The notes under the pieces: model-generated
Database searches by the model: none
Seen by the model: the letters and a program-made list of their open reading frames with translations, nothing else
Told to the model about the DNA's origin: nothing
Assembly: GCA_031271685.1 (NCBI GenBank)
Contig: JAISVH010000095.1
Coordinates: 1-40,978 of the forward strand
Reading direction: 5' to 3'
Length of the DNA: 40,978 bases
From: Eubacterium sp.
GTDB lineage: Bacteria > Bacillota > Clostridia > Oscillospirales > Ruminococcaceae
Shown here: positions 16,615 through 39,923 of the stretch, piece after piece
Numbering within the stretch: the stretch's first letter is position 1
Layout of the letters: the number at the start of each line of letters is the position of its first letter
Program-made: the position numbers and the translations under genes

Positions 16615-16794
16615 TTAAAGCAATACTGCACAGGTCTGGCGTGTAAAGCATGCAGATGGATTTTTCGTCAAACTAGGCAATTTTCCCGCGAGTATCTGTT
16701 GATATTTAAGGTAAAATTAACAAAGTTTGGCGAAAAATACGCAAGTGATTTGTGCGTCAAGCCGTTAAGCGCGAGTTGTGCGGTGCTGCCTTAA
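16615..16794 (-). repeat. R1 element, end type i, 180 bp
   Basis: Runs from TTAAAGCAATACTGCACAGG to GAGTTGTGCGGTGCTGCCTTAA. It is the reverse orientation of the 180-bp copies at 33815-33994 and 39744-39923, and the internal core (TGTTGATATTTAAGG, inverse of CCTTAAATATCAACGG) is shared. It ends 10 bases before the recN stop codon. Confidence 0.85.
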
Positions 16795-16804
16795 AAATCC
16801 ATTG

Positions 16805-18463
16805 TCAATTATCACCCGCTAACAGTTCCTCCGCCGTATTAACAGCGCTTAGGCTGTCCGGGTCACCCGAAATAATCCGCGCTAGCTCTTGCTTTCTCCC
16901 TTCGCGATCTAGCGTCCTTACGATTGTATAGGTTCGCTCATTTCGGCTTTCTTTTTCTATCAATAAATGATTAGTCGCCTTCGATGCTATCTGCGCTAAA
17001 TGTGTCACGCAAATAACCTGCCTTCTACCTGAAAGATCCGATAGTTTTACTCCTACTTTATTTGCGGCTCTTCCGCTTATTCCGGCATCAATTTCGTCAA
17101 AAATCATAGTGGGTATATCATCGCTTTCGGCAAGGCTGCTTTTGATAGCCAGCATTACACGCGACAGTTCACCTCCCGACGCAATTTTCGCAATAGGCTT
17201 AGGTTCTTCTCCTTTATTCACCGACATATACATTTCATCGCAGTCCATGCCGTTTACGGTTACTTTGTCTGCCGTTATCCTGAATTCAGGACGGGCATCC
17301 GGCATGTCCAGATAAATTAGTTCTTTTGTTATTTGCTCAGTTAGATTTTGCGCGGCGTCACGGCGTTTTTCAGAGATTTCTAAACCCAAAGCTTTCAGCC
17401 GTTCGCCGAGAGCTTTTTTTTCTTCTTTAAGCGAATTTATCAAATCCTCGGAAAAGCTAAGTTCTGCTAGCTCAACGCGCCACCTATCACATTCTTTAAT
17501 AATGTTGTCAAGACCCATTTTATACTTTCGTTTAAGCGATAAAATACCTGACATTTTTTCTTCAAGCGCATTTATGTCGATCTCTTCTTCTGTGCTCGGT
17601 ATTAGCTTGAAAACTTCGCCCTTTATGTCCAAAAGCTCATCATAAACGCTCTCTAGTCGGTTAGAAAGCCCGCTTATATTGTCGTTTCCCTCAACAGAAT
17701 TAAGCCTTTGCACAGACTTATAAATTAAATCCAACACGCCACTCGTTTGCTCTCCGCCAGACAAACCCTCAAATACAAAATTTAAAGCGTCCGATATATT
17801 TTGATTTCCTCGTGCCATCTCAAGAGCCAATGCCGTAGCTTCTTCATCTCCGAGCTTAAGCCCAAGACCTTCTATTTCTTTGATTTTGCTTTGCAATATC
17901 CCTATTAAAATCTCCTTTTGGGCACCCTCCTTTTCTATCCCCCTTATTCTCCTGCTGACCGCCGAAAAGCTGCGGAAACAATCCGCATATTCATTTAAAG
18001 TATTGCCTAACCCGGCAAACTCGTCCAACAGTTCACGCTGCTTATCTATATTGGTGAGAATACGGCTGTCCTGTTGTCCGTGTATATCCAACAGGTCAGC
18101 GGTAATCTCTTTTAAAACCATTGACGAAGCGGTTTTGCCGTTTATCCTTATGGTGGATTTTCCATCGGCGCTTATTTCACGCATAACCAGCAGTTCACCG
18201 TTATCACAGCCGTATCCGCTTTCAATAAGTTTTGCTTTTGAAAATTCGGACAGATTTTCAAAAAGAGCGGTTATAACTCCCTTATCACAGCCTTTACGCA
18301 CAATGTCCTTGTATACGCGTCCGCCGGCAACGGCGCTTATCCCACCGACAAGTATGCTTTTTCCCGCGCCGGTCTCACCGGTAAACACATTGAAGTTATC
18401 GTCAAAGTTAATCACCGCTTTTTCTATTATCGCTAAATTTTCAATATAAAGCTCTTTCAGCAA
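16805..18463 (-). CDS. recN: DNA repair protein RecN
   Basis: SMC-like ATPase that gathers double-strand-break ends for recombination repair. The 552 residues show the Walker A site GETGAGKSILV near the start, a long central coiled coil (about 150-360), the ABC signature IASGGELSRVMLAIKSS and Walker B MIFDEIDAGISG, then CVTHLAQIAS; the length is normal. It follows nadK by 14 bases, the usual nadK-recN order of Firmicutes, although argR/ahrC, often found between or beside them, is absent. It is last in a six-gene operon from dacF. Confidence 0.97.
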   Translation of the reverse strand: MLKELYIENLAIIEKAVINFDDNFNVFTGETGAGKSILVGGISAVAGGRVYKDIVRKGCDKGVITALFENLSEFSKAKLIESGYGCDNGELLVMREISADGKSTIRINGKTASSMVLKEITADLLDIHGQQDSRILTNIDKQRELLDEFAGLGNTLNEYADCFRSFSAVSRRIRGIEKEGAQKEILIGILQSKIKEIEGLGLKLGDEEATALALEMARGNQNISDALNFVFEGLSGGEQTSGVLDLIYKSVQRLNSVEGNDNISGLSNRLESVYDELLDIKGEVFKLIPSTEEEIDINALEEKMSGILSLKRKYKMGLDNIIKECDRWRVELAELSFSEDLINSLKEEKKALGERLKALGLEISEKRRDAAQNLTEQITKELIYLDMPDARPEFRITADKVTVNGMDCDEMYMSVNKGEEPKPIAKIASGGELSRVMLAIKSSLAESDDIPTMIFDEIDAGISGRAANKVGVKLSDLSGRRQVICVTHLAQIASKATNHLLIEKESRNERTYTIVRTLDREGRKQELARIISGDPDSLSAVNTAEELLAGDN

Positions 18464-18477
18464 ATTTTGACACCTCT

Positions 18478-19272
18478 CTACTTCAGTGGTCTCATAAGCT
18501 TATTATGCACCGAATCATAAAAACTGTTTTTAGACATATCAATAATATCAAGCCATAGCCCCGATTTTTTTATTTCTATCGCCTGGCTTCCGGTTATTCG
18601 GATTCGTTCGCCGCCATCAACACTTAACAATACTTCGTCCTTATCCGAATATTTTGAGAAAGTCACATTAAGAGCGTCTTCTCCACTGAAAATAATCGTT
18701 CTCCCGAAAAGGGTATGCGCGCACAGCGGCGTGAACTCAATGCAGGAAATTTCAGGCTCAAGTATCGGTCCTCCCGCCGAAAGGGCATAAGCCGTGGATC
18801 CGGTAGGGGTGCTAAAAATAAGTCCGTCCGCGCGTATTCGCGAAAACTCCAGTCCCCCGCCGCTTATTCTGAATTCGGGAAGTTTTGCTCCGGTCTCTCT
18901 GCTTATTACGGCATCGTTCAGCGCCAAAAAACTTTTTTCCTCAACTATAACGTCTAGCATCATCCTTTTCGAAACGCGGTAATCTCCGCTTTTAAGACGC
19001 GAAAGCTTATCCAATTCTGAAGGCTCAAGAGTTGCCATAAATCCTAAGGTGCCGGTGTTTATTCCAAGCAGGGGCTTTCTCGCACGCGCGGCGGACTTCC
19101 CCCAATTAAGTATGGTCCCGTCCCCACCAACGGTCATTACCAAATCACAAATTGAGATTTCAGAGGATTCCGTTGTAACGACAATGCATTGCCTCTTCAG
19201 GTGTGACAAAACGGAATCTAATATTTCATCGGATTTTTCCTTTTCGTGATTAACACATAACAAAACTTTCAT
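18478..19272 (-). CDS. nadK: NAD kinase
   Basis: Phosphorylates NAD+ to NADP+. The 264-residue product has the diagnostic GGDGTILN (about 50-57), LLGINTGTLGFMATLE, RIRADGLIFSTPTGSTAYALSAGGP and a C-terminal DGGERIRI block. Length is normal. It starts 20 bases downstream of the ADP-ribosylglycohydrolase-like gene in the same operon and is followed by recN. Confidence 0.97.
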   Translation of the reverse strand: MKVLLCVNHEKEKSDEILDSVLSHLKRQCIVVTTESSEISICDLVMTVGGDGTILNWGKSAARARKPLLGINTGTLGFMATLEPSELDKLSRLKSGDYRVSKRMMLDVIVEEKSFLALNDAVISRETGAKLPEFRISGGGLEFSRIRADGLIFSTPTGSTAYALSAGGPILEPEISCIEFTPLCAHTLFGRTIIFSGEDALNVTFSKYSDKDEVLLSVDGGERIRITGSQAIEIKKSGLWLDIIDMSKNSFYDSVHNKLMRPLK

Positions 19273-19292
19273 GCTATTTTTCTTTCAAAAAA

Positions 19293-20366
19293 CTATTCTT
19301 CATTAAATACGCTGACGCTGTATAATTGCTCAGACATGTCCAACAGAAGATTTTTATATTGTATTTTCTTTACCCAACGCCTGGGTATTATCCCCACTCC
19401 TCTGCAAGCGCCTGCAAGGCCTCCGGCCAGTGACGCGCAGACTTCGCTTTCACCATCGTGATTGACCGCAAGCTGTATAGTATGAATATAGCTTTCTTCA
19501 TGCAACGCTGCGCAAAAAACTGCGATAGCCAACGCTTCAGCCGCGCTTTTGCCGCTACCTATTTCAGCTAAAGCTCCTCGGGGAGGAAGCGAAGGTTCAT
19601 AAAGCAACCTTAGCGCTAAATCCAAATATTCCAACACTTCATCGTGTCCATTATAATTTTTAAGTATTTTTACAGACCTTTTGGCGGATTCTTCTATCGA
19701 ATAACCGTTGATTATTTCAGCGATTATCGCGCTATAACACCCGGCCGCAAGATATCCCGATGTTCCGCAGTGGGTAATAGCGGCGAAATCGGCACCCGCA
19801 CGAAAGGCTATTTCAGGATCATAGTTGAAATAAAGTCCGGCCGCTAAAACCCTCTTTAACCCTCCATTATCACTATTATTGTTTATTTTAGAGTTAATTT
19901 TGCCGTAATTCATCTCTTTTGCGGAAAGCAACGCCTCTATACTGACATTGTCGAGGTACCTATTTTTATAAAGACCTTTAGCCCTTAAAAGACGCATGTG
20001 ATATTTGTTTCTGCGGTCGTCAAAAATCCATGCGTATTCTTTGCCGGCTATGCTTTTTGTTTGTGTATAAAGCCATACTTGGTATGAATAAAAAACATAT
20101 GCCGTATAGTTTATCTCTTTCCCTTTAGATTCATAATCCGCCCATAATATTCCGTCGGCCGTGAAGAGCATAAGCTGAGTGGCATCTGTAAACAGCGCTG
20201 TGCCCGATTTTTTGCTGACCGCTAATTCAAGGCAGCCCTGCGTCTCAAACCGATCGCATATCTGTTCAAAATTCAAGGTTCTGGCAGGATGCCCAAAAGC
20301 ATCGCCGATGGCAAAACCCAAAATAGCCCCGTCAAAACGGTCGGAATTTAAGATTCTTTTCCCCAT
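19293..20366 (-). CDS. ADP-ribosylglycohydrolase-family protein with altered metal sites
   Basis: The 357-residue helical protein resembles the DraG/ARH family, which removes ADP-ribose using two Mg2+ or Mn2+ ions. The start FDGAILGFAIGDAFGHPART is the standard opening. The first metal motif (usually S/T-D-D-T) reads FTDATQ at 59-64, with Ala62 in place of the second Asp. The second (usually D-G/T-D-S/T-D) reads HDGESEV from 303, with two Asp-to-Glu changes, followed by the usual SLAGGLAGA helix. A GAGGAGG ribosome-binding site precedes the ATG, which overlaps the end of the upstream gene by 19 bases. Function may be altered hydrolysis or ADP-ribose binding; it could also be an orthologous subgroup that tolerates these residues. 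Confidence 0.75.
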   Translation of the reverse strand: MGKRILNSDRFDGAILGFAIGDAFGHPARTLNFEQICDRFETQGCLELAVSKKSGTALFTDATQLMLFTADGILWADYESKGKEINYTAYVFYSYQVWLYTQTKSIAGKEYAWIFDDRRNKYHMRLLRAKGLYKNRYLDNVSIEALLSAKEMNYGKINSKINNNSDNGGLKRVLAAGLYFNYDPEIAFRAGADFAAITHCGTSGYLAAGCYSAIIAEIINGYSIEESAKRSVKILKNYNGHDEVLEYLDLALRLLYEPSLPPRGALAEIGSGKSAAEALAIAVFCAALHEESYIHTIQLAVNHDGESEVCASLAGGLAGACRGVGIIPRRWVKKIQYKNLLLDMSEQLYSVSVFNEE

Positions 20367-21328
20367 ACATCCTCCTCGTCCGTCTTATATTTTATAGTAT
20401 TTGATTTATTATAGACTATTCTGGAAAATACAATGTCGTCCCCTGATTTAAATAAACGCTCAAGCAGGCAAAGCAAATTGCCCGGAGTAATAATTACGCC
20501 CATTCCATGGATCTTATTGCCGGTTTCGCGCAGTATATGCCAGACAAGCAAAACACAGTTTTTCGAAATGGCAAAATACGACTTGAAACCTCCGGAATGA
20601 AATTTTCTGAATTTAGCTCCGGCGGCAAACCACAGCTTTGAACAGTAATCCAGATCATCTGAATAAGCAGCGTCGGGTTCACGTTCGCAGAGCCTTTGAA
20701 ACTTTGATTCCCACGGATAAGACTGCTTTAATATCCTTATAATCTCTTCTTTTGCCTTGGCAATCCGCTCAGGTGAAAGCTTAAGTCCGTAGCAGACCGT
20801 TGTTTTGAGGTCATGTACGGCACAAAAACGTATATATCGATTCCGTTCGGCAGTAAAGAATATCCCCTGGCCAAATGTACGCCCCCATTTATAGGTTTCG
20901 GTATCATAGTTGCCATATGAAACTACTCGTCCGTTAAAAGCGATGTCGCAATGCCCCAATTTTCCCCCCGGCCTTAAATGAAAAAGCACTTCCATGTCGG
21001 GAACTTCAGGACAGATAGGGTTCTTCAAAATATCCAGTCTTCTTATAAACCTAGGAAATATTAAAGTTGAAACAAAGACCGAAGGAAAACCCCTGTTCGA
21101 TAAGCGGAAAGCCGCGCAGTAAAATATAAGCAACGTTAAAGCCGTCCCCCACCTTATGGCAGGAGCGAACGAAAGTATGATCCCTGCTAGCAGGTAAGAA
21201 AAAAAAACAATTATATCCAAAGCCTGATTTTCATTTCCATCACGGCTTCCCATTATCACATCAACAAGCTTTATCATCGCTTTAAAAAAGATATACACGA
21301 TAATAGCCGGAATAATTATAACACTCAT
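20348..21328 (-). CDS. Membrane-anchored permuted papain-like (YiiX/YaeF, NlpC/P60-type) candidate
   Basis: A 326-residue protein of unknown function. The N-terminus has a hydrophobic start (MSVIIIPAIIVYIFF) and two further helices (about 40-75), then a soluble domain. That domain has HLRPGGKLGHCDIAFNG (about 117-133; His in a strand-turn) and, some 110 residues later, DLDYCSKLWFAAGAKF with a conserved-looking Cys. The His-before-Cys order and the Y-C-S-x-L pattern fit the permuted NlpC/P60 (YiiX) group, a cysteine amidase or lipid-acting fold. It overlaps rlmH (4 bases) and the ARH-like gene (19 bases), so it is translated in coupling. Some other cysteine hydrolase cannot be excluded. Confidence 0.5.
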   Translation of the reverse strand: MSVIIIPAIIVYIFFKAMIKLVDVIMGSRDGNENQALDIIVFFSYLLAGIILSFAPAIRWGTALTLLIFYCAAFRLSNRGFPSVFVSTLIFPRFIRRLDILKNPICPEVPDMEVLFHLRPGGKLGHCDIAFNGRVVSYGNYDTETYKWGRTFGQGIFFTAERNRYIRFCAVHDLKTTVCYGLKLSPERIAKAKEEIIRILKQSYPWESKFQRLCEREPDAAYSDDLDYCSKLWFAAGAKFRKFHSGGFKSYFAISKNCVLLVWHILRETGNKIHGMGVIITPGNLLCLLERLFKSGDDIVFSRIVYNKSNTIKYKTDEEDVWGKES

Positions 21329-21804
21329 TTATGATATTTCATTCCTCTTTGAATGGTGACTGCACGATAGATTTGTTCGGCGAGCGCCACACGAGCCATC
21401 TGATGTGGCAGCGTCATAGCAGAAAGCGACAGCTTTAAACCGGCAGCCGATTTTATTTTCTCAGAGAGTCCAAACGAGCTACCGATAACAAAGCACGCCT
21501 CTTTTCCGGTCTCGCTTATATGGGCCATTATTTCAGCAAACCTCTCTGAAGTCATTTGCCTTCCCTCGACACAAAGCGCTATAAGATAGTGACGACTGCC
21601 CAACCTTGAAAGTATTTCTTCTGTCTCCTTAGAAAGTGCGGCATTTATCAGTTTTTCCGAAGGGCCGTCAGGAAGCTTTATCGGAGATAATTCGGTATAG
21701 ATTATATCACAATACGGCTTTAATCGTTTAATATATTCAGCTTCACATTCTTTAAAATAGCTTTCTTTCAAGCCTCCCATGGTGATAATATTAATTTTTG
21801 TCAT
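21325..21804 (-). CDS. rlmH: 23S rRNA (pseudouridine1915-N3)-methyltransferase RlmH
   Basis: SPOUT-class enzyme methylating pseudouridine 1915 in helix 69 of 23S rRNA, using S-adenosylmethionine. The 159 residues contain the family blocks IALCVEGRQMTSERFAE, CFVIGSSFGLSEKIKSAA, LSLSAMTLPHQMARVALAEQIYRA and the end IQRGMKYHK. Length is exactly that of the family. It overlaps dacF and the YiiX-like gene by 4 bases each. Confidence 0.97.
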   Translation of the reverse strand: MTKINIITMGGLKESYFKECEAEYIKRLKPYCDIIYTELSPIKLPDGPSEKLINAALSKETEEILSRLGSRHYLIALCVEGRQMTSERFAEIMAHISETGKEACFVIGSSFGLSEKIKSAAGLKLSLSAMTLPHQMARVALAEQIYRAVTIQRGMKYHK

Positions 21805-23204: not shown

Positions 23205-23311
23205 CTAGACAAAGCCCCTTAAAAAGTATATAATTAAACCAAACATTATTTATTATTATAGCACAAACCCCAAAAAAACGCAATAAAAAATATATATTAA
23301 AGAGGATATTT

Positions 23312-25764: not shown

Positions 25765-25896
25765 CTATAATTTAACTTGAAATTTAGTAAATTAAAAGTT
25801 AAACTAGGATTACGCTGTTTGTGAGCAGCGCCTTCAACTCGCACGTTGCGGACCACCTTTAACTTAAAGAATACCAAGTGTTTTTTAAGTTAAAGG
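25765..25896 (+). repeat. R4 repeat and hairpin in the dockerin-gene leader
   Basis: GTTAAACTAGGATTACGCTG plus GTGAGCAGCGCC and CACGTTGCGG match, inverted, part of the element at 5319-5514. The last part holds an exact 12-bp inverted repeat (25856-25867 with 25885-25896, CCTTTAACTTAA/TTAAGTTAAAGG) just before the ribosome-binding site (GAGAGG), so it may affect translation. Confidence 0.65.
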
Positions 25897-25925
25897 ACTA
25901 CACTTTTAAAAGAGAGGTATGCAAA

Positions 25926-28049
25926 ATGAAAAACGGCGCTTTTAAAAAAATGCTGTCATTGCTTTTAACGACAGCTATTGTTATCACTCTTCTCCCTACG
26001 GCAATTTCTGCCGCTGACGCCACTGTTGCTATATCAGACGCGAAAGATTCGCCCGGCAAAACAGTTAAACTCCAAGTAACTATTGATCCTAATCCTACAT
26101 TAGCGGATGCAATAATATGGTTTGATATACCTGAAGAGTTAAAATTGGTGAATTTTGACGGTACTGGAGGTATGATGATCGACTCCAGTACTGATATAAA
26201 CGAGGGAAAGCTAATGCTTCGCGAGGTTGCTTTACCCATTGAAGAAGATGAAAACGCCGACCCGTCCGGAACAGATTTTCCGGGTTGGAAAGAGCCGTTG
26301 CTCACCACGTTAGAAATCTTTATCCCCAACAATACCCCAAGCGGAAATTACAGTATTGGCATTATTCCGTTTGACGATGTCAGCAGCGCTTCGGGAATCG
26401 GATCAAGTTTCTCATATGTAACGCAATCCGGGGACACGGAAGTCATAAAATCGCTTGAAAATGTTACATATGAAAGTGGCACGGTAACCGTTGTAAAATA
26501 TAACGACTTAACCCTGACCTATTTCTCCAATGTTCCCGGAGTCACTCCTCCCGCTGCTGATTCCGCAAATATTGAAGAGGGTAAAAGCCACCAATTTACG
26601 GTTAAAGGCGCTGACGGGATGCTAAACGAGGGTTACACCTTTAAGGGTTGGGCGACAAGCTCTGGCGCAATCACACCAGAGTATGAGCCTGGAGAAACTT
26701 ATGAAACCGCTGTTAGCGCAAAACTTTATGCCGTTTGGGAAAAATATGCATTTACAGCGCCGACTTCAGTTTTCTTTGACGCTAAAAAAACGTCAAGCGG
26801 CGGTTACAGTCTGCCCGACCCGAAAAACATTACCGTTAAAAATATCGGGAACAGATATATAGGAGATTTTTCGATTAGCGCTATATCAGGTAGCTCCGGG
26901 TTATTTAATATTTCTCCTAGCACTTTTTCGTTAGATGCCGGCTTAGAAAGTTTAGTTGAAGTCTCTCTCTCAGAAGCGGCTAAAAGCCTTTCAAGCGGTA
27001 TTTATGCCGCAGTGTATGGGATTTCTAGCCAATCTCAGGAAATTTCTAAGGAAATAACTTTTAGTTTTGAAGTTCATGATTTCGGAGTGGAATTATTCAC
27101 CTTGACAGTAAATAACGGCATAGGAGCCCGCGATGATGTGGAGCCCGGCACTGAAGTTAGTATTGCGGCGAACGAAGCGGAAGAAGGTCAGGAATTTGAT
27201 GTCTGGATGTTCACCTTGTCCGACAATCCCTATACTCCTTTATTTGTGAGCGGCAGCATAAACAGCGGCGAAGTCAGTTTTAAAATGCCTGAAGGCAATG
27301 TTACGGCTACGGCGACATATAAAAATTATTATTCCGTTACCGTTAACGGCAGCGGCACTGTCGGTTCCAAGCAAAAAGTATATCCTGGTGAAACTGTTGA
27401 GATCTCAGCTCCTTATGAAATTACCGGCGAAGTGTTTGATAAGTGGGAATTCACCACGTCAAGCTCATCATACACACCTGAATTTGAAGATGGCAATATA
27501 ACCGCAAACTCAGTGAGCTTTAAAATGCCTGAAGACAATGTTACGGCTACGGCAAAATATAAAAAATACTATTCTGTAATCGTTAACAACGGCTCAGCGA
27601 TCATTAACGGCGGCTCAGGTTCCTCGGGAAAAGTATTTCAGGATGATTCAGTCACTATTACAGCCGACGTAAGGCCAAGCGAGAAATTCAACAAGTGGAC
27701 GTTCACCTCGTCAGGCGGCAATTATACTCCTACATTTTTGAGCGGCAGTGAAACTAGCAGCAGCGGAGCAACATTTAACATGCCCGGTTGGGATGTTACT
27801 ATTACGGCAACATATAATCCCGATGCGCCGGATCATCCATTTAGCCGAGGCGACGTCAACCGTGACGGAGAAATCGGTAACGCCGACGCTTTGTGGCTCA
27901 AGCGCTATCTGCTTGAATTACCCGGATATACGGAATTCAGAGAAGAAATGGATATGAACGACAACGGAGAAATCGGTAACGACGATGCTCTTTGGTTGGT
28001 TCGACATCTTCTCGAATTACCCGGATATTTAGTTATTATGCCTTGGTAA
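25926..28049 (+). CDS. Secreted multidomain protein with cohesin-like domain, InlB-type repeats and C-terminal dockerin I
   Basis: A 707-residue extracellular protein, probably a cellulosome-type component. After a signal peptide (MKNGAFKKMLSLLLTTAIVITLLPTAISA) comes a cohesin/CBM-like beta-sandwich at about 30-190 (DAKDSPGKTVKLQVTI...). An InlB/Listeria-Bacteroides repeat follows at 215-275 (GYTFKGWATSSG...LYAVWEK), then an Ig-like part to about 390. Next are three diverged InlB repeats (each FDKWEF/KFNKWTF ... FKMPEDNVTATAKY). The dockerin ends the protein, with two calcium loops, GDVNRDGEIGNADALWLKRYLL and DMNDNGEIGNDDALWLVRHLL. ATG 25926 is chosen over 25878 by GAGAGG and the signal peptide. 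No catalytic domain is seen. Having both a cohesin-like and a dockerin domain suggests an adaptor, but the cohesin call is uncertain. Confidence 0.82.
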   Translation: MKNGAFKKMLSLLLTTAIVITLLPTAISAADATVAISDAKDSPGKTVKLQVTIDPNPTLADAIIWFDIPEELKLVNFDGTGGMMIDSSTDINEGKLMLREVALPIEEDENADPSGTDFPGWKEPLLTTLEIFIPNNTPSGNYSIGIIPFDDVSSASGIGSSFSYVTQSGDTEVIKSLENVTYESGTVTVVKYNDLTLTYFSNVPGVTPPAADSANIEEGKSHQFTVKGADGMLNEGYTFKGWATSSGAITPEYEPGETYETAVSAKLYAVWEKYAFTAPTSVFFDAKKTSSGGYSLPDPKNITVKNIGNRYIGDFSISAISGSSGLFNISPSTFSLDAGLESLVEVSLSEAAKSLSSGIYAAVYGISSQSQEISKEITFSFEVHDFGVELFTLTVNNGIGARDDVEPGTEVSIAANEAEEGQEFDVWMFTLSDNPYTPLFVSGSINSGEVSFKMPEGNVTATATYKNYYSVTVNGSGTVGSKQKVYPGETVEISAPYEITGEVFDKWEFTTSSSSYTPEFEDGNITANSVSFKMPEDNVTATAKYKKYYSVIVNNGSAIINGGSGSSGKVFQDDSVTITADVRPSEKFNKWTFTSSGGNYTPTFLSGSETSSSGATFNMPGWDVTITATYNPDAPDHPFSRGDVNRDGEIGNADALWLKRYLLELPGYTEFREEMDMNDNGEIGNDDALWLVRHLLELPGYLVIMPW

Positions 28050-28139: not shown

Positions 28140-28301
28140 AGAGCGTGTTCACAAAAATAAAGACGTCTATATTTTTGCGTATTTTTCGACATGCCGCGTT
28201 AATTTTTCCTTTGATATCAATGGATATTCGTGTCAAAATTGTCTCGTCTGACGAAAAATACGCAGAAAATCTGAATATTTCTGTTTTTGTGAACACGCTC
28301 T
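28140..28301 (+). repeat. R1 element, end type ii, 162 bp
   Basis: Perfect inverted ends: AGAGCGTGTTCACAAAAA (28140-28157) and TTTTTGTGAACACGCTCT (28284-28301). The core (GTTAATTTTTCCTTTGATAT, CAATGGATATTCG) is that of the type i elements at 33815 and 39744, although the ends differ completely. It occupies the first part of the predicted hppA leader. Confidence 0.9.
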
Positions 28302-28435
28302 ATATTAAATTAACTTGAAAATGAACAAAAATAATTTTTGCAAAACAGCATGATATTTTGCAGTAAATCCGCTTGTATAGATTAACTGCAACTTTAGTGT
28401 TATTATTATTGGTATTTTCTAAGTTAATTAACGAT
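28301..28435 (+). repeat. R2 element, 135 bp, in the hppA leader
   Basis: Left end AAATTAACTTGAAAAT, right end TCTAAGTTAATTAACGATA. It is the same length as, and reverse-complementary along its whole length to, the R2 element at 11028-11162 (shared words include TTTTGCAGTAAATCC). It directly abuts the previous element. Confidence 0.85.
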
Positions 28436-28578
28436 AATACTTACCTCTGACAGAAAACCTATTCAAAAAAAAGTTTAGTTTATGGTTTTTGATGCGTATG
28501 TTTATCAAGGTTTTCAGATTGGAGATCAGTATAAATCGGCGGACTGCCGTAATTTATTACTTACTAAGGAGTGTTGTT

Positions 28579-30789: not shown

Positions 30790-30853
30790 TTTAAGGATTC
30801 ACTTTTGAAATCTCGTCAAGCCGATAGGTGCGAGTTGTGCGGTGTTGCCTTAA
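30790..30853 (-). repeat. Partial R1 (type i) end and small hairpin
   Basis: GTGCGAGTTGTGCGGTGTTG with final CCTTAA matches one end of the 180-bp elements. The rest of the element is gone. A short inverted repeat AATCCTT/AAGGATT (30780-30800) before it could be the hppA terminator. Confidence 0.55.
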
Positions 30854-30876
30854 CTTAAATTTGTTATATATTCAAC

Positions 30877-31143: not shown

Positions 31144-31230
31144 ATATAACCGCGTTCATGTCCCTCTACTCTTATGCGGCGGGTGATTATCTCCCGCTGA
31201 CGCTTGTTAAGACACTGGAAGCGGCTCGCA
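31144..31230 (+). repeat. Repeat R3, 3'-truncated, in front of the kinase gene
   Basis: Starts TATATAACCGCGTTCATG and proceeds through CTCTTATGCGGCGGGTGATT and GACGCTTGTTAAGACACTGG to GCGGCTCGCA, where the usual CCGCAGATG-TTTGAA end is missing. It is inverted relative to the copy at 32083-32188; the two flank the kinase gene. Confidence 0.7.
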
Positions 31231-32087: not shown

Positions 32088-32188
32088 TTCAAACATCTGC
32101 GGCGGAGCCGCTTTCAGCGTTTTAACAAGCGTCGGCGGGGGATAATCACTCGCCGCATAAGAGGAAGGGAACATGAACGTGGTTATAG
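32083..32188 (-). repeat. Repeat R3, about 106 bp, overlapping the kinase stop codon
   Basis: Begins TATAGTTCAAACATCTGCGG and ends GAACATGAACGTGGTTATAG; the R3 stem GCGGCGGAGCCGC is intact. The opening TATAG supplies the stop codon TAG (32085-32087) of the kinase gene. Confidence 0.8.
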
Positions 32189-32368: not shown

Positions 32369-32394
32369 TTGTTAATTTTTTTATAAAAAATCTC

Positions 32395-32423
32395 TTGATT
32401 ATCCCGCCAAAAATTGGTATACT
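32395..32423 (+). promoter_or_regulatory. Extended -10 promoter of the U32-dut operon
   Basis: TTGATT (32395-32400), 17-bp spacer, TATACT (32418-32423) with TG one base upstream. Expected start near 32430 and a leader of about 27 bases. Confidence 0.75.
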
Positions 32424-32456
32424 ATTATTGTATATATTTTTTGGTGGTTAGTCTGT

Positions 32457-33200: not shown

Positions 33201-33201
33201 T

Positions 33202-33645: not shown

Positions 33646-33648
33646 TAT

Positions 33649-33803
33649 ACTTCCTGCGAAATTACGCTGTGCCGTTATGTCGGCAAAATTTACGTAATAC
33701 GGAGTTTATTTTTGCTTAAATATCAACAGATATTCGCACAAAATTGCCTTTTTGGGCGAAAATTTTACTCGCCAACCCATAGCATTTTCATTACGCAAGA
33801 AGT
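33649..33803 (+). repeat. R1 element, end type iii, about 155 bp
   Basis: Ends ACTTCCTGCGAAATTACGC and TTACGCAAGAAGT are mutually inverted. The core (TTTGCTTAAATATCAACAG, ATATTCGCACAAAATTGCC) is the shared R1 core. This is the third end type seen with that core. Confidence 0.75.
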
Positions 33804-33814
33804 CTAATAAATAT

Positions 33815-33994
33815 TTAAGGCAACATCGCACAACTCACGCTTAACGGCTTGACGCACAAATCACTTGCGTATTTCTCGCTAAACTTCGTTAATTTTTCCT
33901 TAAATATCAACGGATATTCGCGACAGAATTGCCTAGTTTTGCGAAAAATCCGACCGCGTGCTTTGCACGCCAGAGCTGCGCGGCATTGCCTTAA
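33815..33994 (+). repeat. R1 element, end type i, 180 bp
   Basis: TTAAGGCAACATCGCACAAC at the left and GCTGCGCGGCATTGCCTTAA at the right. It contains the R1 core CCTTAAATATCAACGGATAT and is near-identical to 39744-39923. It lies directly upstream of mreB and abuts the type iii element. Confidence 0.9.
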
Positions 33995-34033
33995 TAAAAA
34001 TCAGCAAAATAAGCAGAAGGATGAGGTAGGTTA

Positions 34034-35053
34034 ATGTTTTCAAAAGACATAGGAATCGATTTGGGCACGGCAAACACTCTTGTATATATGAGGGGTAAAG
34101 GGATAATAATTCGCGAACCGAGCGTTGTGGCGGTTGACGTTAAATATGACCGCGTGCGCTATGTGGGGCATGAGGCCAAAGAAGTCATCGGACGAACACC
34201 AGGGTCGATAGTTGCGGTACGTCCGCTTAAAGATGGCGTTATTGCGGATTTTGATATGACAACAAGTATGCTTCAGGCTTTTATCAAAAAGGCGATGAAA
34301 GGAAGCGCCTTTTCTAAGCCCCGTGTAATTATCTGCATACCGTCGGGGGTAACGGCGGTGGAGCGCCGCGCTGTAAAAGAGGCAACTCAAAACGCCCGCG
34401 CAAAACGGGTCTCTATAATTGAAGAACCTATGGCGGCGGCTATAGGAGCGGGGTTACCGGTAGCCGAGCCCACAGGAAGCATGATTGTTGATATCGGCGG
34501 CGGCACTAGCGAGGTGGCGGTAATTTCCCTGGGAGGCATTGTTACCTCGCGTTCTGTAAGGGTGGCCGGAGATGAGTTTGATCTTTCAATAATTAATTAT
34601 ATAAAGAAAAAATACAATCTCCTTATTGGTGAGCGTACCGCAGAAAACGTTAAAACCGGGATAGGCTCTGCCTATCCCTCGGCAGAGAATGAACCGGTTA
34701 TGGACATTAAAGGGCGGAATCTTTTAAATGGGCTACCCGAGAATATAACAATAACTAGCGAGGAGATACGCGAGGCCCTTTCGGAACCAATTGAGCATGT
34801 CATCGACGCGATAAAAACCACTCTTGAAAAAACCCCGCCTGAGCTTGCCTCTGATATAATTGACACCGGCATAATGCTGGCCGGAGGCGGAGCTCTTCTT
34901 AAGGGGTTAGACATGCTTATACATGCGGAAACCGGGATGCCCGTTAAAATCGCTGAGCATCCGCTTGACTGCGTCGCTGAGGGAACAGGAATAGTGCTTG
35001 AGAATATTGATAAATTAATTGATGTGCTTAATGATGAGGATTCAAAATATTAG
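34034..35053 (+). CDS. mreB: Rod-shape protein MreB (actin homologue)
   Basis: Forms membrane-bound filaments that guide lateral wall synthesis. The 339-residue protein begins [20 protein letters not shown] (phosphate 1 loop). It has [18 protein letters not shown], the phosphate 2 block [21 protein letters not shown], and the adenosine motif [18 protein letters not shown], all intact; length is normal. GATGAGGTAGG gives the ribosome-binding site. mreC follows, but after 416 bases full of repeats rather than directly. Confidence 0.97.
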
Positions 35054-35153
35054 GTCATGTTCGATAATAGGCAACATGTCAATTGACTGAGAATTTTACG
35101 ATATATTTCGTTAATTTTTTCTAGTCACATTGACTATTCCGAACACGCACTAG
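35051..35153 (+). repeat. Worn R1-type element, end type ii, beginning at the mreB stop
   Basis: TAGGTCATGTTCGATAATAG on the left and TATTCCGAACACGCACTA on the right form imperfect inverted ends. The core is visible as TTTCGTTAATTTTTTCTAG. The first three bases are the TAG stop codon of mreB. Confidence 0.5.
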
Positions 35154-35163
35154 TTAGGAGTTT

Positions 35164-35276
35164 TTATAACCGCGTTCATACCTCCCGCCTCTTAGGCGGC
35201 GGAGTCCATGATAACTATGTTAGCGGAGGGAGATTGACAATCATCCGCAAGCGGCTCCGCCGCAAATGCTTGAAAC
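35164..35276 (+). repeat. Repeat R3, about 113 bp
   Basis: Starts TTATAACCGCGTTCATAC, ends AAGCGGCTCCGCCGCAAATG-CTTGAAA. The GC-rich hairpin is intact. One of four elements crowded between dut and mreC. Confidence 0.75.
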
Positions 35277-35359
35277 ATAATTAATAAGTTAGGAGCAGGA
35301 AGTTTAGTGTTTGGGGTAATGAGAGGTTATAATTAGCCACTTTTAATTTCTCGATCCAA

Positions 35360-35452
35360 TAATAAATAACTTGAAAACAGCGCAAAGTAATTTTTTAAAA
35401 TCGCATGGCGTTTGCATCATAATTTCGGATATTTTTTAAGTTGTTTAACTAT
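35360..35452 (+). repeat. Repeat R2, about 93 bp
   Basis: Left AAATAACTTGAAAAC, right TTTTTTAAGTTGTTTAACTAT, imperfectly inverted. It ends 17 bases before the mreC start codon. Confidence 0.65.
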
Positions 35453-35469
35453 GATTCCTTACTAAAGAC

Positions 35470-36324
35470 GTGAAAGATTTTTTTAAAAGCTGGAAATTTA
35501 AGATAATTGTCAGTATTTTTTTTATGCTTATTGGATTTTTGGTTTACGCTGTAATTTATGGCGGTTTGTCGTCTGGTCCGGAGGTGGTTCTTAAATCTAT
35601 CACCCAGCCCTTTTCTAGCGTTGCTAACAATGTGACCGATTGGGTTGAAAATCAGATAGACATGCTGATAAATGCCGATAAGTATAAAGAGGAAAACGAG
35701 TTGCTTAAAAAGCAGCTGTCTGATATGTATGGGCAAGTAAAGGATGTTGACGACCTGCGAGAGGAAAACGACCAGCTTAGAAAAATAATTGATATAAAAC
35801 AGGATAACAAAGACTTTAAACTAGCACCGCCGTGTAATATTATACTTCGTAATGCATCAGATGTATTTAAAGGATTCACTGTTGATAGGGGATTGAATGA
35901 CGGCATTAAAATAGGAGACCCGGTGCTGACCGATATAGGCTTGGTGGGGACGGTCACCGATGTTACCCCGGCTTTTTCAGAGGTTACCACCATACTTTCC
36001 ACGGGAGTGCATATCGGCGTTACAACCGTGTCTGGGAATATTGGTGGAATTATTGAAAACAATCTTATACAGGCCGAAGACCAAAAATGCCTTATGAGCT
36101 ATATTGAAAAAAACAGCGGTATTAAAGTGGGGGACGTTGTAATGACTTCGGGTGGAAGCGTATTTCCGGCGGGGATTATTGTGGGAGAAATAGTTGAGAT
36201 ATATGACGACAGCAACGGACTGTCTCTCCATGCGGTTATAAAACCATCGGTAGATTTAACCGGCATTACAGACTGTTTTGTAATTACATCGTTTTATGGT
36301 CAGGGGGTTGCGCTTGAGGAATGA
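35470..36324 (+). CDS. mreC: Rod-shape protein MreC
   Basis: Bitopic protein that activates PBP2 in the elongation complex. The 284 residues have a short cytoplasmic start, one membrane helix (KIIVSIFFMLIGFLVYAVIYGG), then a coiled coil (about 70-105, KEENELLKKQLSDMYGQVKD). The family beta domains follow, with TVDRGLNDGIKIGDPVLTDIGLVGTV and VVMTSGGSVFPAGIIVGEI. A GTG start at 35470 is used; the ribosome-binding site is weak (CTAAAG). The mreD ATG overlaps the stop by 4 bases. Confidence 0.93.
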   Translation: MKDFFKSWKFKIIVSIFFMLIGFLVYAVIYGGLSSGPEVVLKSITQPFSSVANNVTDWVENQIDMLINADKYKEENELLKKQLSDMYGQVKDVDDLREENDQLRKIIDIKQDNKDFKLAPPCNIILRNASDVFKGFTVDRGLNDGIKIGDPVLTDIGLVGTVTDVTPAFSEVTTILSTGVHIGVTTVSGNIGGIIENNLIQAEDQKCLMSYIEKNSGIKVGDVVMTSGGSVFPAGIIVGEIVEIYDDSNGLSLHAVIKPSVDLTGITDCFVITSFYGQGVALEE

Positions 36325-36911
36325 AGTTTAATATTACTTCAACGACATATCTTAACCGGCGGCAAAAGCTTCAGGTTTTCGCTAAATGGTTTTTATATTC
36401 ACTTTCTCTTATAATTGTTTTTATGATAATGACATCCGGGATTTTTGAAAGTTGGCAGCCTTTTTTGATGTTGCCGTTGGCCACGGCGATCGCCATGCAT
36501 GAGGGAGAGCTGAATTCATCGATTTTTGCCACTTTTTGCGGTTTGCTTATGGATATTGCAACAGGCAAATTTTTTGGGTTTTCGGCAATTATAATGCTTC
36601 CGGCGGCGATGTTGACGACTCTTCTTGCGCGCAACCTTATAAGATCCAATATAATAAATCATTTGTGGTTGACTGCGGCGGCTTGTCTTGCTTTAGGCGG
36701 TATGCAATTTCTTTTTGAATACATTATATGGGATTATGACGGTCAGGAGTTAATTTTTAAACAGTATATATTTCCGTCATACGCTTCGCCTGTTTTGCTT
36801 GCTCCGCTGTTTTTTTTACTTATAAAATGGATATCTGCCACTTTTATGGCCAATGAAAAAAATGTAAACAGAGACACGACGGAAAAGGAAGAAAGCGGTC
36901 ATGATAAATAA
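36321..36911 (+). CDS. mreD: Rod-shape protein MreD
   Basis: Small integral membrane partner of MreC. The 196-residue protein has five to six hydrophobic helices, with the family-like segment CGLLMDIATGKFFGFSAIIMLPAAMLTTLL. It has about 30 charged residues at its C-terminus (NVNRDTTEKEESGHDK). Overlaps mreC by 4 bases and mrdA by 11 bases. Sequence conservation in this family is low, so the call leans on context. Confidence 0.85.
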   Translation: MKFNITSTTYLNRRQKLQVFAKWFLYSLSLIIVFMIMTSGIFESWQPFLMLPLATAIAMHEGELNSSIFATFCGLLMDIATGKFFGFSAIIMLPAAMLTTLLARNLIRSNIINHLWLTAAACLALGGMQFLFEYIIWDYDGQELIFKQYIFPSYASPVLLAPLFFLLIKWISATFMANEKNVNRDTTEKEESGHDK

Positions 36912-39015
36912 GGACGTTATTAAAAAGGCAAACAATATTTTGAGACTGACTATTATTGTTTTAATTATGACACTGGTCAGTTTTTTAGCTGTTACAAGGC
37001 TTGCTAAGATACAAATCGTTGATGGGGAGATGTATCTTAGCCAAACAAGGAAAAGCTATACCGCGCAACAGGCGATTCAAGCTGCGCGCGGACAAATTGT
37101 GGATAAAAACGGAAAGCTTTTGAACACTAATGAAGTGGTGTATAAAGTTATAGTGCAGAAGGCGTTTTTTACAAAAGGCGAGGAAAATAAAATAATTTCG
37201 CGCATTATAAAAATCCTTCAAAGAAATAACGAGGAATGGATAGATACTATGCCGGTGACTTTAACGGCTCCATATCGGTTTATGGACGTGGGGGAAGCAG
37301 AGCTAGATAAGCTTAAGGAAAATCTGACGCTAAACGTTGACGCGACTGCTGAAAATTGCATAAGCAAGCTGGTGAACGATTATAAAATCGACGAGAGCTT
37401 TTCGCCTGAAATGACAAGGTATATAGCCGGTATACGATATGAAATGCAAATACGTGATTTTTCGCAAAACAACCGCTATACTTTTGCTGATGACATATCA
37501 TTAAAAACCGTGACCGAGTTAAAAGAATATTCTTCTGCGTTGGGCGGAATTGATATAATTGAAGAGCCGATGCGTGTGTATTATGAAGGAAATATGGCGG
37601 CACATATCCGCGGAGCTATCGGGTCTATATCTGCAGGGCAGTATGATGAATTAAAAGAAAAAGGATATAGCCTTAATGATACGTTAGGTCAAACCGGTAT
37701 CGAAAAGGCAATGGAAAGTGTTTTGCGAGGCGAAAATGGGGTCAGAACCATAACAAGAGATCAGAATGGCAGGGCCATTTCAGATGAAATCACAACCGGC
37801 GTAAAAACCGGAAACAGCATTAAGCTGACCATTGAATCTAAATTTCAGAATGATTTGCAGGAAATACTAAAAAATCATGTAAACTGGCTTCATAATATAA
37901 ATTTGACTGAGGAGACTCCGGCATGGCGCAGAGGGCAAAACACCCAAGGAGTTTCGGTGGTAGTGTTGGATGTTAAGACCGGAGCGGTTCTTGGAATGGC
38001 AAACTATCCCACCTATGACTTAAACGACTATATTGATAATTATGGAAAGGTTTTGAACGAACCTCTCAACCCGCTTTTCAATCGGGCTACTATGGGGCTT
38101 TATCGTCCGGGATCAACATTTAAGCCTATAGTTGGCGCTTCCGGTCTGTATAAAAATGTTATTGATAAATATTCCACCGTGCTTTGCACGGGGCGTTATA
38201 CCTATTTTACCTCATATCAGCCGGGATGTACCGGGGTTCATGGAAACATATCGATTGAATATGCGCTTCGCATGTCCTGCAACTGCTTTTTTTATGATGT
38301 CGGCCGAAAGACGGGCATAGACGGTTTTGCGAATACCGCCGAAAATTTTGGAGTCGGTACTAATTTAGGGCTTGAGATTGATAACGGAGGAGCTTCAGGG
38401 CGTATGACCACTCCTGAGGTTTATAATCAGATAGTCGAAAAAGAGTTCACGGCAGGAGATACTATACAGGCGGCAATAGGACAGTCAGAAACCTTAGTGA
38501 CTCCGCTCCACCTAGCAGTTCAGGCCATGGCTTTCGCAAACAATGGAGTGAGATATAAGCCATATTTGGTAGATTCGATTTGGAATTATGACTTTTCTCA
38601 GCTGATATATGAAACTCAACCGGAAATAGCAGCTGAGTTTTATCAGGACCGAACTGATATTTTTGAGACAATACGCGCAGGAATGATATCGGTGTCTGAA
38701 ATGGTTTATTGGCCGCCGGGCAATCCCGCGCTTTGGTGTTATGATTATCTGCCGGATCAAGTCGCAACTAAAACCGGCACACCGCAAGTGTCGCTGAATG
38801 TTTATAACTCGACCGTAATGGGATATTATCCTGCGCACGATCCGCAGATATCTTTCGGTGTGGTAGCTGAAAACAGCGATTGGTCGCGATATATCATACG
38901 CAATATAATAGACGCGTATTTTTATGACGCGTACGAGCCGGATATGAGTGAAGACGGAGTAGTGCTGCGACCGTGGAAGCGTTGGTCTGCGGAAAAGATT
39001 GATAGACTTTTGTGA
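36901..39015 (+). CDS. mrdA: Penicillin-binding protein 2 (PBP2-type peptidoglycan transpeptidase)
   Basis: Cross-links peptidoglycan during cell elongation, working with MreBCD and RodA. The 704-residue protein starts with one anchor helix (ILRLTIIVLIMTLVSFLAVTRLA). The non-catalytic dimer domain follows (ARGQIVDKNGKLLNTNEVVYK, then GAIGSISAGQYDELKEKGYS and LGQTGIEKAMESVLRGENG). The transpeptidase domain has S-x-x-K in RPGSTFKPIVG, S-x-N in RMSCNCFFYDV and K-T-G in VATKTGTPQ. All catalytic motifs are intact. AAGGAAG gives the ribosome-binding site. It closes the mreC-mreD-mrdA operon. Confidence 0.95.
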   Translation: MINKDVIKKANNILRLTIIVLIMTLVSFLAVTRLAKIQIVDGEMYLSQTRKSYTAQQAIQAARGQIVDKNGKLLNTNEVVYKVIVQKAFFTKGEENKIISRIIKILQRNNEEWIDTMPVTLTAPYRFMDVGEAELDKLKENLTLNVDATAENCISKLVNDYKIDESFSPEMTRYIAGIRYEMQIRDFSQNNRYTFADDISLKTVTELKEYSSALGGIDIIEEPMRVYYEGNMAAHIRGAIGSISAGQYDELKEKGYSLNDTLGQTGIEKAMESVLRGENGVRTITRDQNGRAISDEITTGVKTGNSIKLTIESKFQNDLQEILKNHVNWLHNINLTEETPAWRRGQNTQGVSVVVLDVKTGAVLGMANYPTYDLNDYIDNYGKVLNEPLNPLFNRATMGLYRPGSTFKPIVGASGLYKNVIDKYSTVLCTGRYTYFTSYQPGCTGVHGNISIEYALRMSCNCFFYDVGRKTGIDGFANTAENFGVGTNLGLEIDNGGASGRMTTPEVYNQIVEKEFTAGDTIQAAIGQSETLVTPLHLAVQAMAFANNGVRYKPYLVDSIWNYDFSQLIYETQPEIAAEFYQDRTDIFETIRAGMISVSEMVYWPPGNPALWCYDYLPDQVATKTGTPQVSLNVYNSTVMGYYPAHDPQISFGVVAENSDWSRYIIRNIIDAYFYDAYEPDMSEDGVVLRPWKRWSAEKIDRLL

Positions 39016-39068
39016 TGATATGAGTTTGTTAATTTAACGCTTGTTTTTGGTGAAATTGTGAATTTCTC

Positions 39069-39097
39069 TTGATTTTTGCAAATAAATATGTTATACT
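39069..39097 (+). promoter_or_regulatory. Extended -10 promoter of mgsA
   Basis: TTGATT (39069-39074), 17-bp spacer, TATACT (39092-39097) with TG one base before it. Start near 39104, leader about 68 bases. Confidence 0.7.
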
Positions 39098-39171
39098 ATA
39101 CAAAGAGTTAATTTAAAATAGAACTAATAATAAAATGCGATAGGCCCGAGATGGGATGGAAAGGTGTATAT

Positions 39172-39570
39172 ATGAATATAGCGTTAATCGCTCACGATGC
39201 GAAAAAAGAGCTTATGGTTCAATTTTGCATTGCGTATTGCGGTGTGTTATCGCGGTATAATATTTGTGCTACGGGCACGACCGGCAAGCTTGTTTCGGAA
39301 GCAACCGGACTTCAGATACAGCGTTATTTAAGCGGAGGACAAGGAGGGGCGCAGCAAATAGTGGCGCGCATATCCTGTAATGAAATAGACGTGTTATTTT
39401 TCTTTCGTGATCCTATAAGCGCAAAGTCTACGGAACCGGACGAGATAAATATATTAAGAGTTAGTGATGTTCACAATATACCGGTGGCTACTAACATCGC
39501 TACCGGAGAAGCTCTGATTCATGCGCTTGAGCGCGGAGATCTAGATTGGCGCGAGATAATGAGGTCTTAA
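39172..39570 (+). CDS. mgsA: Methylglyoxal synthase-like protein lacking catalytic residues
   Basis: Methylglyoxal synthase converts dihydroxyacetone phosphate to methylglyoxal plus phosphate. The 132 residues match the family throughout: IALIAHDAKK, ICATGTTGKLVS, phosphate-site region LSGGQGGAQQI, IDVLFFFRDPISA and HNIPVATNIATGEALI. Compared with the E. coli enzyme, His19 (here His8), Asp91 (Asp80) and Asp101 (Asp90) are kept. The catalytic base Asp71 is Ala60 (GGAQQ) and His98 is Thr87 (STEPD). The tail ERGDLDWREI is seen, as I recall, in a clostridial subgroup. ATG 39172 is used, with AAAGGTG 8 bases upstream, rather than the ATG at 39151. In relatives it often follows the mre-min cluster; here it follows mrdA after 156 bases. 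Confidence 0.82.
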   Translation: MNIALIAHDAKKELMVQFCIAYCGVLSRYNICATGTTGKLVSEATGLQIQRYLSGGQGGAQQIVARISCNEIDVLFFFRDPISAKSTEPDEINILRVSDVHNIPVATNIATGEALIHALERGDLDWREIMRS

Positions 39571-39591
39571 CCATGCTGATAAATCAGGCTG

Positions 39592-39697
39592 TATAGTAAT
39601 TTAACTTGAAAACAGAGCCAATAATTCCGTAAAACCACTTATATCCAAGCTTTTATGTCATTTTTCGGTTGTTTTCTGAAGTTAATTAGCAACTATA
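39592..39697 (+). repeat. Repeat R2, about 106 bp
   Basis: Left end TATAGTAATTTAACTTGAAA, right end GAAGTTAATTAGCAACTATA, imperfect inverted ends of family R2. It lies between the mgsA stop codon and a terminator, thus in the mgsA 3' untranslated region. Confidence 0.75.
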
Positions 39698-39708
39698 AGC
39701 CATTAAAA

Positions 39709-39733
39709 AGGGGAGAAATCTCCCCTGTTTTTA
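39709..39733 (+). terminator. Terminator after mgsA
   Basis: AGGGGAGA (39709-39716), a two-base centre and TCTCCCCT (39719-39726), followed by GTTTTT. A standard rho-independent terminator; hisS would therefore need its own promoter. Confidence 0.85.
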
Positions 39734-39743
39734 ATTAAAATAG

Positions 39744-39923
39744 TTAAGGCGACACCGCACAACTCACGCTTAACTGCTTGACGCACAAATCACTTGCGTA
39801 TTTATCGCCAAACTTCGTTAATTTTGCCTTAAATATCAACGGATATTCGCGGCAAAATTGCCTAGTTTGACAAAAAATCCGACTGCGTGCTTTGAACGCC
39901 AGATCTGTGCGGCATTGCCTTAA
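39744..39923 (+). repeat. R1 element, end type i, 180 bp
   Basis: From TTAAGGCGACACCGCACAAC to GCGGCATTGCCTTAA, exactly as long as the copies at 16615 and 33815. It contains the core CCTTAAATATCAACGGATAT. It lies immediately upstream of the hisS ribosome-binding site, where the hisS promoter would be expected. Confidence 0.9.

Follow-up and report, generated by a model that had tools for sequence, protein, structure and literature searches.

The question raised by this locus is which part of a small mobile element is its lasting unit. MITEs are classed by their ends, the part that is read by the transposase, whereas in the elements described here the centre lasts and the ends turn over. The window analyzed is a stretch of 40,978 nucleotides from Eubacterium sp. 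(contig JAISVH010000095.1). Three complete elements of 180 bp, designated type A, were found in it with common TTAAGGCA-type ends, as the original prediction had stated. The copy at 33815–33994 (forward strand, flanking TTAA included) has the ends GGCAACATCGCAC and GGCAATGCC. The copies at 16615–16794 (reverse strand) and 39744–39923 (forward strand) are 87% and 92% identical to it, respectively. The structured core of the 33815 copy was located at 33873–33949 by a match to the structural model R2 (77 positions, 80.1 bits). On the same strand it contains the left side of a conserved internal loop, TTCGTT (33885–33890, placed by sequence and loop conservation), a tip hairpin AATATC-AACG-GATATT (33903–33918), and the right side of the loop, GCCTA (33931–33935; class consensus GCCTT). 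The corresponding core match in the 39744 copy spans 39802–39878. In the 16615 copy the core was placed at about 16660–16736 by symmetry and not by a model match.

The same core with other ends, which had also been predicted, was confirmed from the sequence for two forward-strand elements. A complete type B element of 162 bp at 28140–28301 has ends AGAGCGTGTTCAC, also given as AGAGCGTGTTCACAAAAA, and a core match at 28183–28259 (81.0 bits). The type C element of 155 bp at 33649–33803 has ends ACTTCCTGCG and CGCAAGAAGT and a core match at 33689–33764 (59.7 bits). Partial or worn copies, expected near 4212, 9966, 30790, and 35051, were found as a type B right half at 4212–4273 (reverse strand, 89% identical to 28240–28301), a type A right half at 9956–10056 (reverse strand, 74% identical to 39831–39931), a type A end piece at 30814–30855 (reverse strand), and a worn bit of type A left arm at 35088–35122 (forward strand, 77% identity across 35 nt).

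In the whole genome containing the window, the 19-base centre AATATCAACGGATATTCGC gave 122 matches with up to three mismatches (61 on each strand; 39 exact), compared with 2 matches (2 + 0) for the reversed pattern, so the repetition of the centre is not due to chance. With up to five mismatches, 139 unique sites were obtained and 117 were kept by a flank filter; one rejected site (L136) lay within three mismatches. Six end types around one core were distinguished by eye. The earlier view that several ends exist was therefore right, and its minimum of three can be raised, at least six types being present by eye in this genome; the first scan missed some sites, and the first end typing rested on that scan. 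Worn forms of one end were not seen; the ends fall into unrelated families, and every family has an inverted repeat of its own. The shared core is also more than a low-complexity palindrome. Arms were typed on both sides in 91 of 123 copies, a set reaching up to five mismatches with further loci added; as the listing gave the first 100 of the 122 matches, the set does not comprise all copies. The arms were parental in 80 copies and unlike or doubled in 11; in 9 of the latter the two arms differ in type, and in 2 both are right-type A arms. These 11 copies, with swapped or inverted arms, indicate that ends have been exchanged around the centre, as had been suspected. In the window's genome a single tip occurs with several different ends, and near-identical ends occur with different tips. 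Some elements carry a second, inverted core, which the structural model finds in 4 of 11 such loci.

The core forms a hairpin of about 80 bp. The 19-base tip, around which the core had been predicted, is indeed shared but makes up only a portion of what is conserved; in relatives the tip differs and the internal loop beside it is retained. The covariation check proposed for the folded core gave changes on both sides in 23 of 24 pairs in alignment A5, a level reached in none of 500 shuffles. Double-changed cells numbered 552, compared with 156.8 in the shuffles, and slid versions were at most 47.6% paired. In alignment A3, 21 of 24 pairs were changed on both sides and 90.8% of cells were paired (slid versions, at most 54.4%). 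The MAFFT alignment A2, with 21 rows and a hand-drawn structure, gave double changes in 11 of 24 pairs. Because alignments A3–A6 were fitted to the model, their pair counts are biased in its favor; the shuffles did not preserve relatedness, and antisense rows were kept in the A3 and A5 covariation counts. The unpaired internal loop TKCGTT/GCCTT is strongly conserved, with 10 of its 11 columns at 0.80–0.98 identity and all columns at 0.65–0.98, compared with roughly 0.2–0.9 bit per column in the covarying middle helix. Sequence conservation is high in the outer helix as well and is thus not confined to the loop. Outward of the centre, shared information declines from about 40–50 bp (42 representatives, from 43 picked by hand with 1 skipped).

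With the structural model, the core was detected with other ends in 79 of 394 genomes of the order and in 55 of 391 genomes of the class. Both counts include the window's genome and have at least five genomes in common (G000, the window's own, G015, G063, G165, and G170), and they come from few candidates scored per genome under strict filters. An exact-core search had matched only 10 of 148 genomes of the family, with many matches only in the window's genome, and had pointed to a species-limited burst; this was overturned by the structural model. A phage or plasmid origin was rejected, since an exact 22-mer and an exact loop pattern were absent from viral contigs and a BLAST search of phages and plasmids gave no match to a core variant (L274, not a window copy). 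The proposal that the core is the functional unit is supported by the covarying pairing and the strongly conserved internal loop over many genera. We infer its working role from this conservation only.

A conserved internal loop flanked by covarying stems is a usual signature of a structured RNA, and the core has this arrangement. As an RNA, the hairpin and internal loop of a read-through transcript would bind a protein or ribonuclease and alter the stability or expression of the neighboring gene, mobility being a mere means of spread. The orientation of the cores at first favored this. Strand agreement with flanking genes was 44/71 in the window's genome (p = 0.057) and 29/45 in an initial sample from outside it (p = 0.07), with p = 0.007 when the two were pooled, but the bias was lost in a larger overlapping sample (41/76, p = 0.57). 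The pairs are nearly all Watson-Crick, and G.T showed no overall excess over A.C at paired positions after removal of antisense rows, which speaks against an RNA: 23 versus 46 in A3 (60 rows reduced to 59), 102 versus 136 in A4 (150 to 106), and 55 versus 84 in A5 (106 to 100), or 25 versus 33 in A5 with four odd columns left out by hand. The A5 middle helix did show more G.T than A.C (43 versus 28), owing to a single column (27 versus 8). A known structured RNA family was rejected because no Rfam 15 model matched the core at threshold. The window had no match at the gathering threshold, 10 loci had none at E ≤ 1, and in 15 further loci only two tRNAs reached threshold; the core of locus L336 is overlapped by two microRNA models, but these matches are weak (E = 0.2) and fall far short of threshold. 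Taken together, we regard an RNA function of this kind as unlikely, if the best placed of the alternatives. The core may act either as RNA or as a DNA site.

The ends were characterized in several samples of copies. End repeats 155–170 bp apart flanked 49 of 95 sampled copies, compared with 2 of 195 random centres. At the cut-off, 62 of the 95 had an end repeat, and in 49 of these the length was close to 160 bp. In a wider set of 222 copies, 48 had no end repeat; among copies from other genomes with an end repeat, 63 of 86 measured 160–165 bp. With its 180 bp, type A lies outside the usual length. Greedy clustering of the 114 copies that passed score and length filters gave roughly 26 end families, whose end repeats, about 20 bp long, lie outside the core; the count splits some types (type A is counted twice) and may merge others. 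By this clustering, ends are common within each family and not across the superfamily. The elements are short and have no transposase gene, as MITEs do, 155–180 bp being too small for a transposase. Type A duplicates a 4-bp target: 37 of 44 NTAN flank pairs were identical, compared with 27.4 expected, a value reached in 0 of 10,000 permutations. Target duplication was counted for type A only, and other types were read by eye. In one nested insertion (L146) a type A element lies inside a type D element with CTAG on both sides.

The original prediction had called for a search for a transposase gene with matching ends, and none was found among the 10 loci examined. These loci matched DDE_Tnp_1 (PF01609) and came from three of seven core-bearing genomes; none had a core or an end closer than 4 mismatches in 18–19, and an IS5/IS4-type transposase was rejected as partner on these grounds. 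The other four genomes (G149, G155, G402, and G528) had no DDE_Tnp_1 match. When one end was searched in genome G148, all 12 matches belonged to known core elements, and a search with one end in five genomes gave no parent transposon with the same ends; several genomes are incomplete. Four end pairs 0.65–1.1 kb apart in the window's genome enclose open reading frames of 84–207 amino acids, and a 1212-bp end pair in genome G691 (L373) encloses one of 228 amino acids; by eye, none is transposase-like.

A structure-specific recombinase that recognizes the whole element, reading the core and cutting at a fixed distance, would need no set of transposases. The clustering of lengths near 160 bp over so many end families, ends that pair yet have little sequence in common and might thus drift freely, and the genomes lacking a DDE_Tnp_1 match are all in line with it. 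However, 4-bp target duplications are typical of DDE transposases, and type C ends of the window's genome cluster with the ends of three G149 copies, so that ends are kept across genomes. Pairing was also higher in the outer 20 bp (0.81–1.0) than just inside (0.52–0.83), as for transposase-bound ends, although this is partly built in, the 42 representatives having been selected by end pairing. We consider such a recombinase rather improbable. Slightly less probable still is plain common descent from one ancient MITE, whose ends drifted with their transposases while the centre changed more slowly and needed no present function. The near-constant length and the presence of the core throughout the class would follow, but the loop stays conserved while the ends share little, freely changing paired stems flank that unpaired loop, tips are combined with varying ends, and hybrids exist. 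Homologous recombination between dispersed copies alone, with the core as the shared recombination site, would account for the nine joined and two doubled-arm copies but is very improbable, as it leaves unexplained both the loop and structure conserved across genomes with other ends and the symmetric ends of each family.

The explanation that we prefer, while granting it somewhat less than an even chance, is that the elements form one large superfamily of non-autonomous mobile palindromes (MITEs) that occurs through the class, moved in trans by various transposases and sharing a hairpin module that acts at the DNA level. Transposases of different insertion sequences would act in trans at the ends, and the core would work as folded DNA, either extruded or as a single-stranded hairpin. 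A putative factor common to these bacteria would recognize the core through its internal loop, so that the element would serve well as a substrate irrespective of its ends. A switch of arms at the hairpin, during copying or recombination, might supply new ends; ordinary recombination might alternatively be the source of the hybrid arms. More tentatively, the core possibly represents a type of structured DNA module not seen before, in which a hairpin contains a conserved internal loop. Its folded form would be read by the putative factor, and any small transposon could carry it for mobility or persistence, the ends turning over and the module persisting through the class. Against the preferred explanation stand the failure to find an autonomous partner in the genomes and loci searched, the 33 of 95 sampled copies without an end repeat at the cut-off, the conservation of the outer helix beside that of the loop, and the 180-bp length of type A.

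Several known systems share features with these elements. In integron attC sites, the conserved R boxes lie outermost in the folded site, which is accompanied by a cassette gene, whereas the conserved loop here is interior. REP/BIME/REPIN elements have a single-strand HUH transposase (RAYT, Y1), the short REP/BIME palindrome is tagged GTAG/CGTC, and they are not known to have family-specific end repeats. They are conserved imperfect hairpins occurring singly or as inverted pairs, comparable with the single- and double-core forms here (PMC3733652, PMC3116915), with units of 20–40 bp (PMC3733652). Bacterial MITEs, as far as the cited account goes, are likewise short and AT-rich, with end repeats, target duplication, and predicted stem-loops and without a transposase, but are normally told by their ends (PMC10969869), whereas here one structured core is combined with roughly 26 end families over a whole class. 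The Correia/NEMIS elements of Neisseria are MITEs with an internal protein site (IHF), and RNase III cuts their transcripts at the end repeats; the cited sections do not mention a core common to other end families (PMC10969869), which the present elements have. In BOX elements of Streptococcus, tandem boxB units, variable in number, lie between boxA and boxC. They resemble the present elements as modular small repeats with predicted folding, modules that reappear in various combinations, and proposed mobility in trans, but they do not have one core with exchangeable inverted ends (PMC3049150). The Tn3-derived TIMEs are also miniature elements, said to generate mosaic non-autonomous transposons; unlike here, their ends come from one transposon family, Tn3 (PMC4133298, PMC13367494). 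A core module with differing ends was not found described in the part of the literature covered by our search, which excluded most subscription journals.

With a centre that lasts, two questions become open to experiment: by what route a miniature element comes to have new ends, and whether its movement is aided by a folded DNA centre. In one complete genome, a single end sequence had 638 matches with up to three mismatches, compared with 1 in the control, which indicates that such elements also shape genomes.

The window corresponded to contig C37 of the genome G000 (2,261,474 bases, 152 contigs, completeness 93%), and the positions assigned to its repeats in the original prediction were borne out by reading of the sequence and by a repeat finder. 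The three 180-bp copies had TTAAGGCA-type ends in common, and the elements at 28140-28301 and 33649-33803 were similar to them in the centre only. Worn pieces were located at 4212, 9956, 30814 and 35088. Whole-genome searches were performed with each of the three kinds, and 40 candidates were scored per kind. Each kind had relatives in G000, with matches between kinds limited to the centre. The 19-mer AATATCAACGGATATTCGC, applied to the whole of G000 with up to three mismatches, gave 122 matches compared with 2 for the reversed pattern. The conserved unit was larger than this 19-mer and consisted of a hairpin of ~80 bp with three helices, here called the core. The elements are ordinary as MITEs and unusual in this conserved part.

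Six end types were distinguished in G000 by eye from centre-aligned copies: A (GGCAACACCGCAC), B (GAGCGTGTTCAC), C (GACTTCTTGCG), D (TATTACCCCTGCACC), E (TATCACTCCTGCACT) and F (GGGCATGTTCGATAA), the last with both arms present in a single copy. Type A of the window, with 180 bp, exceeded the other elements in length. In G000, 123 of the copies were typed from their arms, beyond the module common to all. Both arms could be typed in 91 copies, 80 of them parental and 11 non-parental, i.e. with arms of unlike or doubled type. Nine non-parental copies combined different types (for example A with D at locus L125, A with C at L069, F with A at L157 and D with A at L170), and the other two, L112 and L120, had two right-type A arms. 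In L040 and L047 two left arms were combined, and the switch therefore went through the palindrome. At L146, type A was nested within type D with CTAG flanking both sides. Insertion of type A generated a 4-bp target duplication: both ends were found in 57 type A copies, 44 of which were flanked on both sides by NTAN, and the flanks were identical in 37 of these 44, compared with a permutation expectation of 27.4 (0 of 10,000 permutations as high). For the other types, duplications were judged by eye only.

An exact 23-mer scan of the bacterial collection yielded 15 stretches in five other assemblies, one Bacillota and four named Oscillospiraceae, whose isolate names we take to indicate termite guts. 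The Oscillospiraceae belong to the class Clostridia, which is therefore presumably also the class of G000. These stretches showed the same centre with other ends. The covariance model R1, based on a first alignment of 21 copies with a hand-drawn structure, gave 25, 101, 48, 2 and 19 matches in the five assemblies at E≤0.01; 60 further stretches from these searches were added, and the copies were inspected by reading. With the covariance model R2 at E≤1e-4, 79 of 394 genomes from the order, belonging to 44 of 168 genera, contained the core; at E≤1e-5, the corresponding figures for the class were 55 of 391 genomes and 35 of 222 genera. E-values are rough, and both counts include G000 and overlap by at least five genomes.

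The tip of the hairpin was variable (AATATC-AACG-GATATT, AATATA-AGCG-TATATT, AAATAC-ACAAA-GTATT and others), and the middle helix was free to change in sequence with pairing mostly kept. Both-side changes were present in 11 of 24 pairs in the 21-copy alignment. In 60 diverse copies, including one antisense-match row, 90.8% of the cells were paired (at most 54.4% in slid structures) and 21 of 24 pairs showed double changes. For 106 class-wide matches, double changes were found in 23 of 24 pairs, and slid structures were at most 47.6% paired. The number of double-changed cells in these matches was 552 compared with 156.8 in shuffles, which ignore the relatedness of the copies; in the later core alignments, copies had been fitted to the model. 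An unpaired loop separated the outer helix from the middle one, with TKCGTT as its left side and GCCTT as its right. In 100 of the 106 rows, the left columns were T.85, G.65, C.92, G.97, T.98 and T.85 and the right columns G.82, C.94, C.96, T.96 and T.80; middle-helix columns in the same rows carried ~0.2-0.9 bit. In the outer and tip helices, the conservation of some letters equalled that of the loop, as in the outermost TT and AA (0.98-1.0). A self-correcting palindrome could be another source of covariation, but such correction would be expected to heal the mismatched loop.

The end repeat is absent from the model and thus provides an independent check on core matches. It was present in 62 of 95 sampled core copies, a few of them from G000, and the total length was 155-170 bp in 49 of the 95 compared with 2 of 195 random centres. 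Another sample contained 86 copies from outside G000 with an end repeat, and 63 of these measured 160-165 bp. Greedy clustering of 114 copies resulted in a rough count of 26 end families. In 42 hand-picked representatives, shared information dropped ~40 to 50 bp from the centre and was mostly <0.4 bit beyond; pairing of the outer 20 bp was 0.81-1.0 in these representatives, which had themselves been found by end pairing. There is good support for turnover of the ends around a structured core that persists.

We hypothesize that transposases of several insertion sequences would cut at the ends, and that the folded core would be read by a shared factor. The nearly exclusive Watson-Crick pairing favours action of the core as DNA over action as RNA. 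In three alignments, the numbers of G.T and A.C pairs were 23 to 46, 102 to 136 and 55 to 84, and in the middle helix alone of A5, one of the successive core alignments, they were 43 to 28, with the caveat that decay may have affected many of the G000 copies. Core copies agreed in strand with genes in 44/71 cases in G000, in 29/45 in a first sample from outside G000 and in 41/76 in a larger overlapping sample, and there was therefore no firm bias.

In a search of seven genomes for DDE_Tnp_1, no autonomous partner was found; the domain was present in three of them at 10 loci, none of which had a core or close end. No Rfam family matched the core at threshold. Exact patterns had no match in viral contigs, and one core variant had none by BLAST in phages or plasmids. 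Literature searches yielded no recognisable description of these elements.

Several class and order genomes contained elements of ~270-280 bp, and the five that were folded had two arms on a paired base. Of 11 such loci, four (L325, L327, L329 and L336) contained a second, opposite-strand core according to R2; in L326, L331, L330, L337, L285, L290 and L305, two core-like arms and paired ends were recognized by reading only. An abundant end, AGGCACATGAAARAAAATAA, was matched with up to three mismatches 638, 136, 182 and 113 times in four genomes of one family (G691, G768, G900 and G884), compared with 1, 2, 3 and 4 control matches. Among AGGCACATGAAARAAAATAA end pairs in 30 loci, 9 were spaced at 158-161 bp and 10 at 54-134 bp, the short forms being interspersed with ~160-bp elements in the sampled loci L372-L401. 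R2 found no core in those short forms that were scanned.

Further repeats were observed in the window. A ~45-bp palindrome without the core, at 16530-16575, had TATAGCAGTTTGACTT ends, and a closely similar end carried the core in L182 and L185 of another genome (G149). A palindromic family around TTCAAACATCTGCGGCGGAGCCGCTT, also without the core, was located at 5320, 11161, 14015, 32088 and 35249. A separate 130-nt repeat at 11027-11156 recurred inverted and 87% identical at 28308-28437, where it adjoined the type B element. Members of a CCGCGTTCATGTC...GGCGGCGG family, 80-87% identical, were present at 31145-31227, 32105-32187 and 35162-35202, and similar letters adjoined some core copies elsewhere in G000. 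The open reading frame at 25878-28049 contained internal duplications at 27195-27587 and 27865-28028, and its 3' duplicated pair may represent a dockerin-type repeat.
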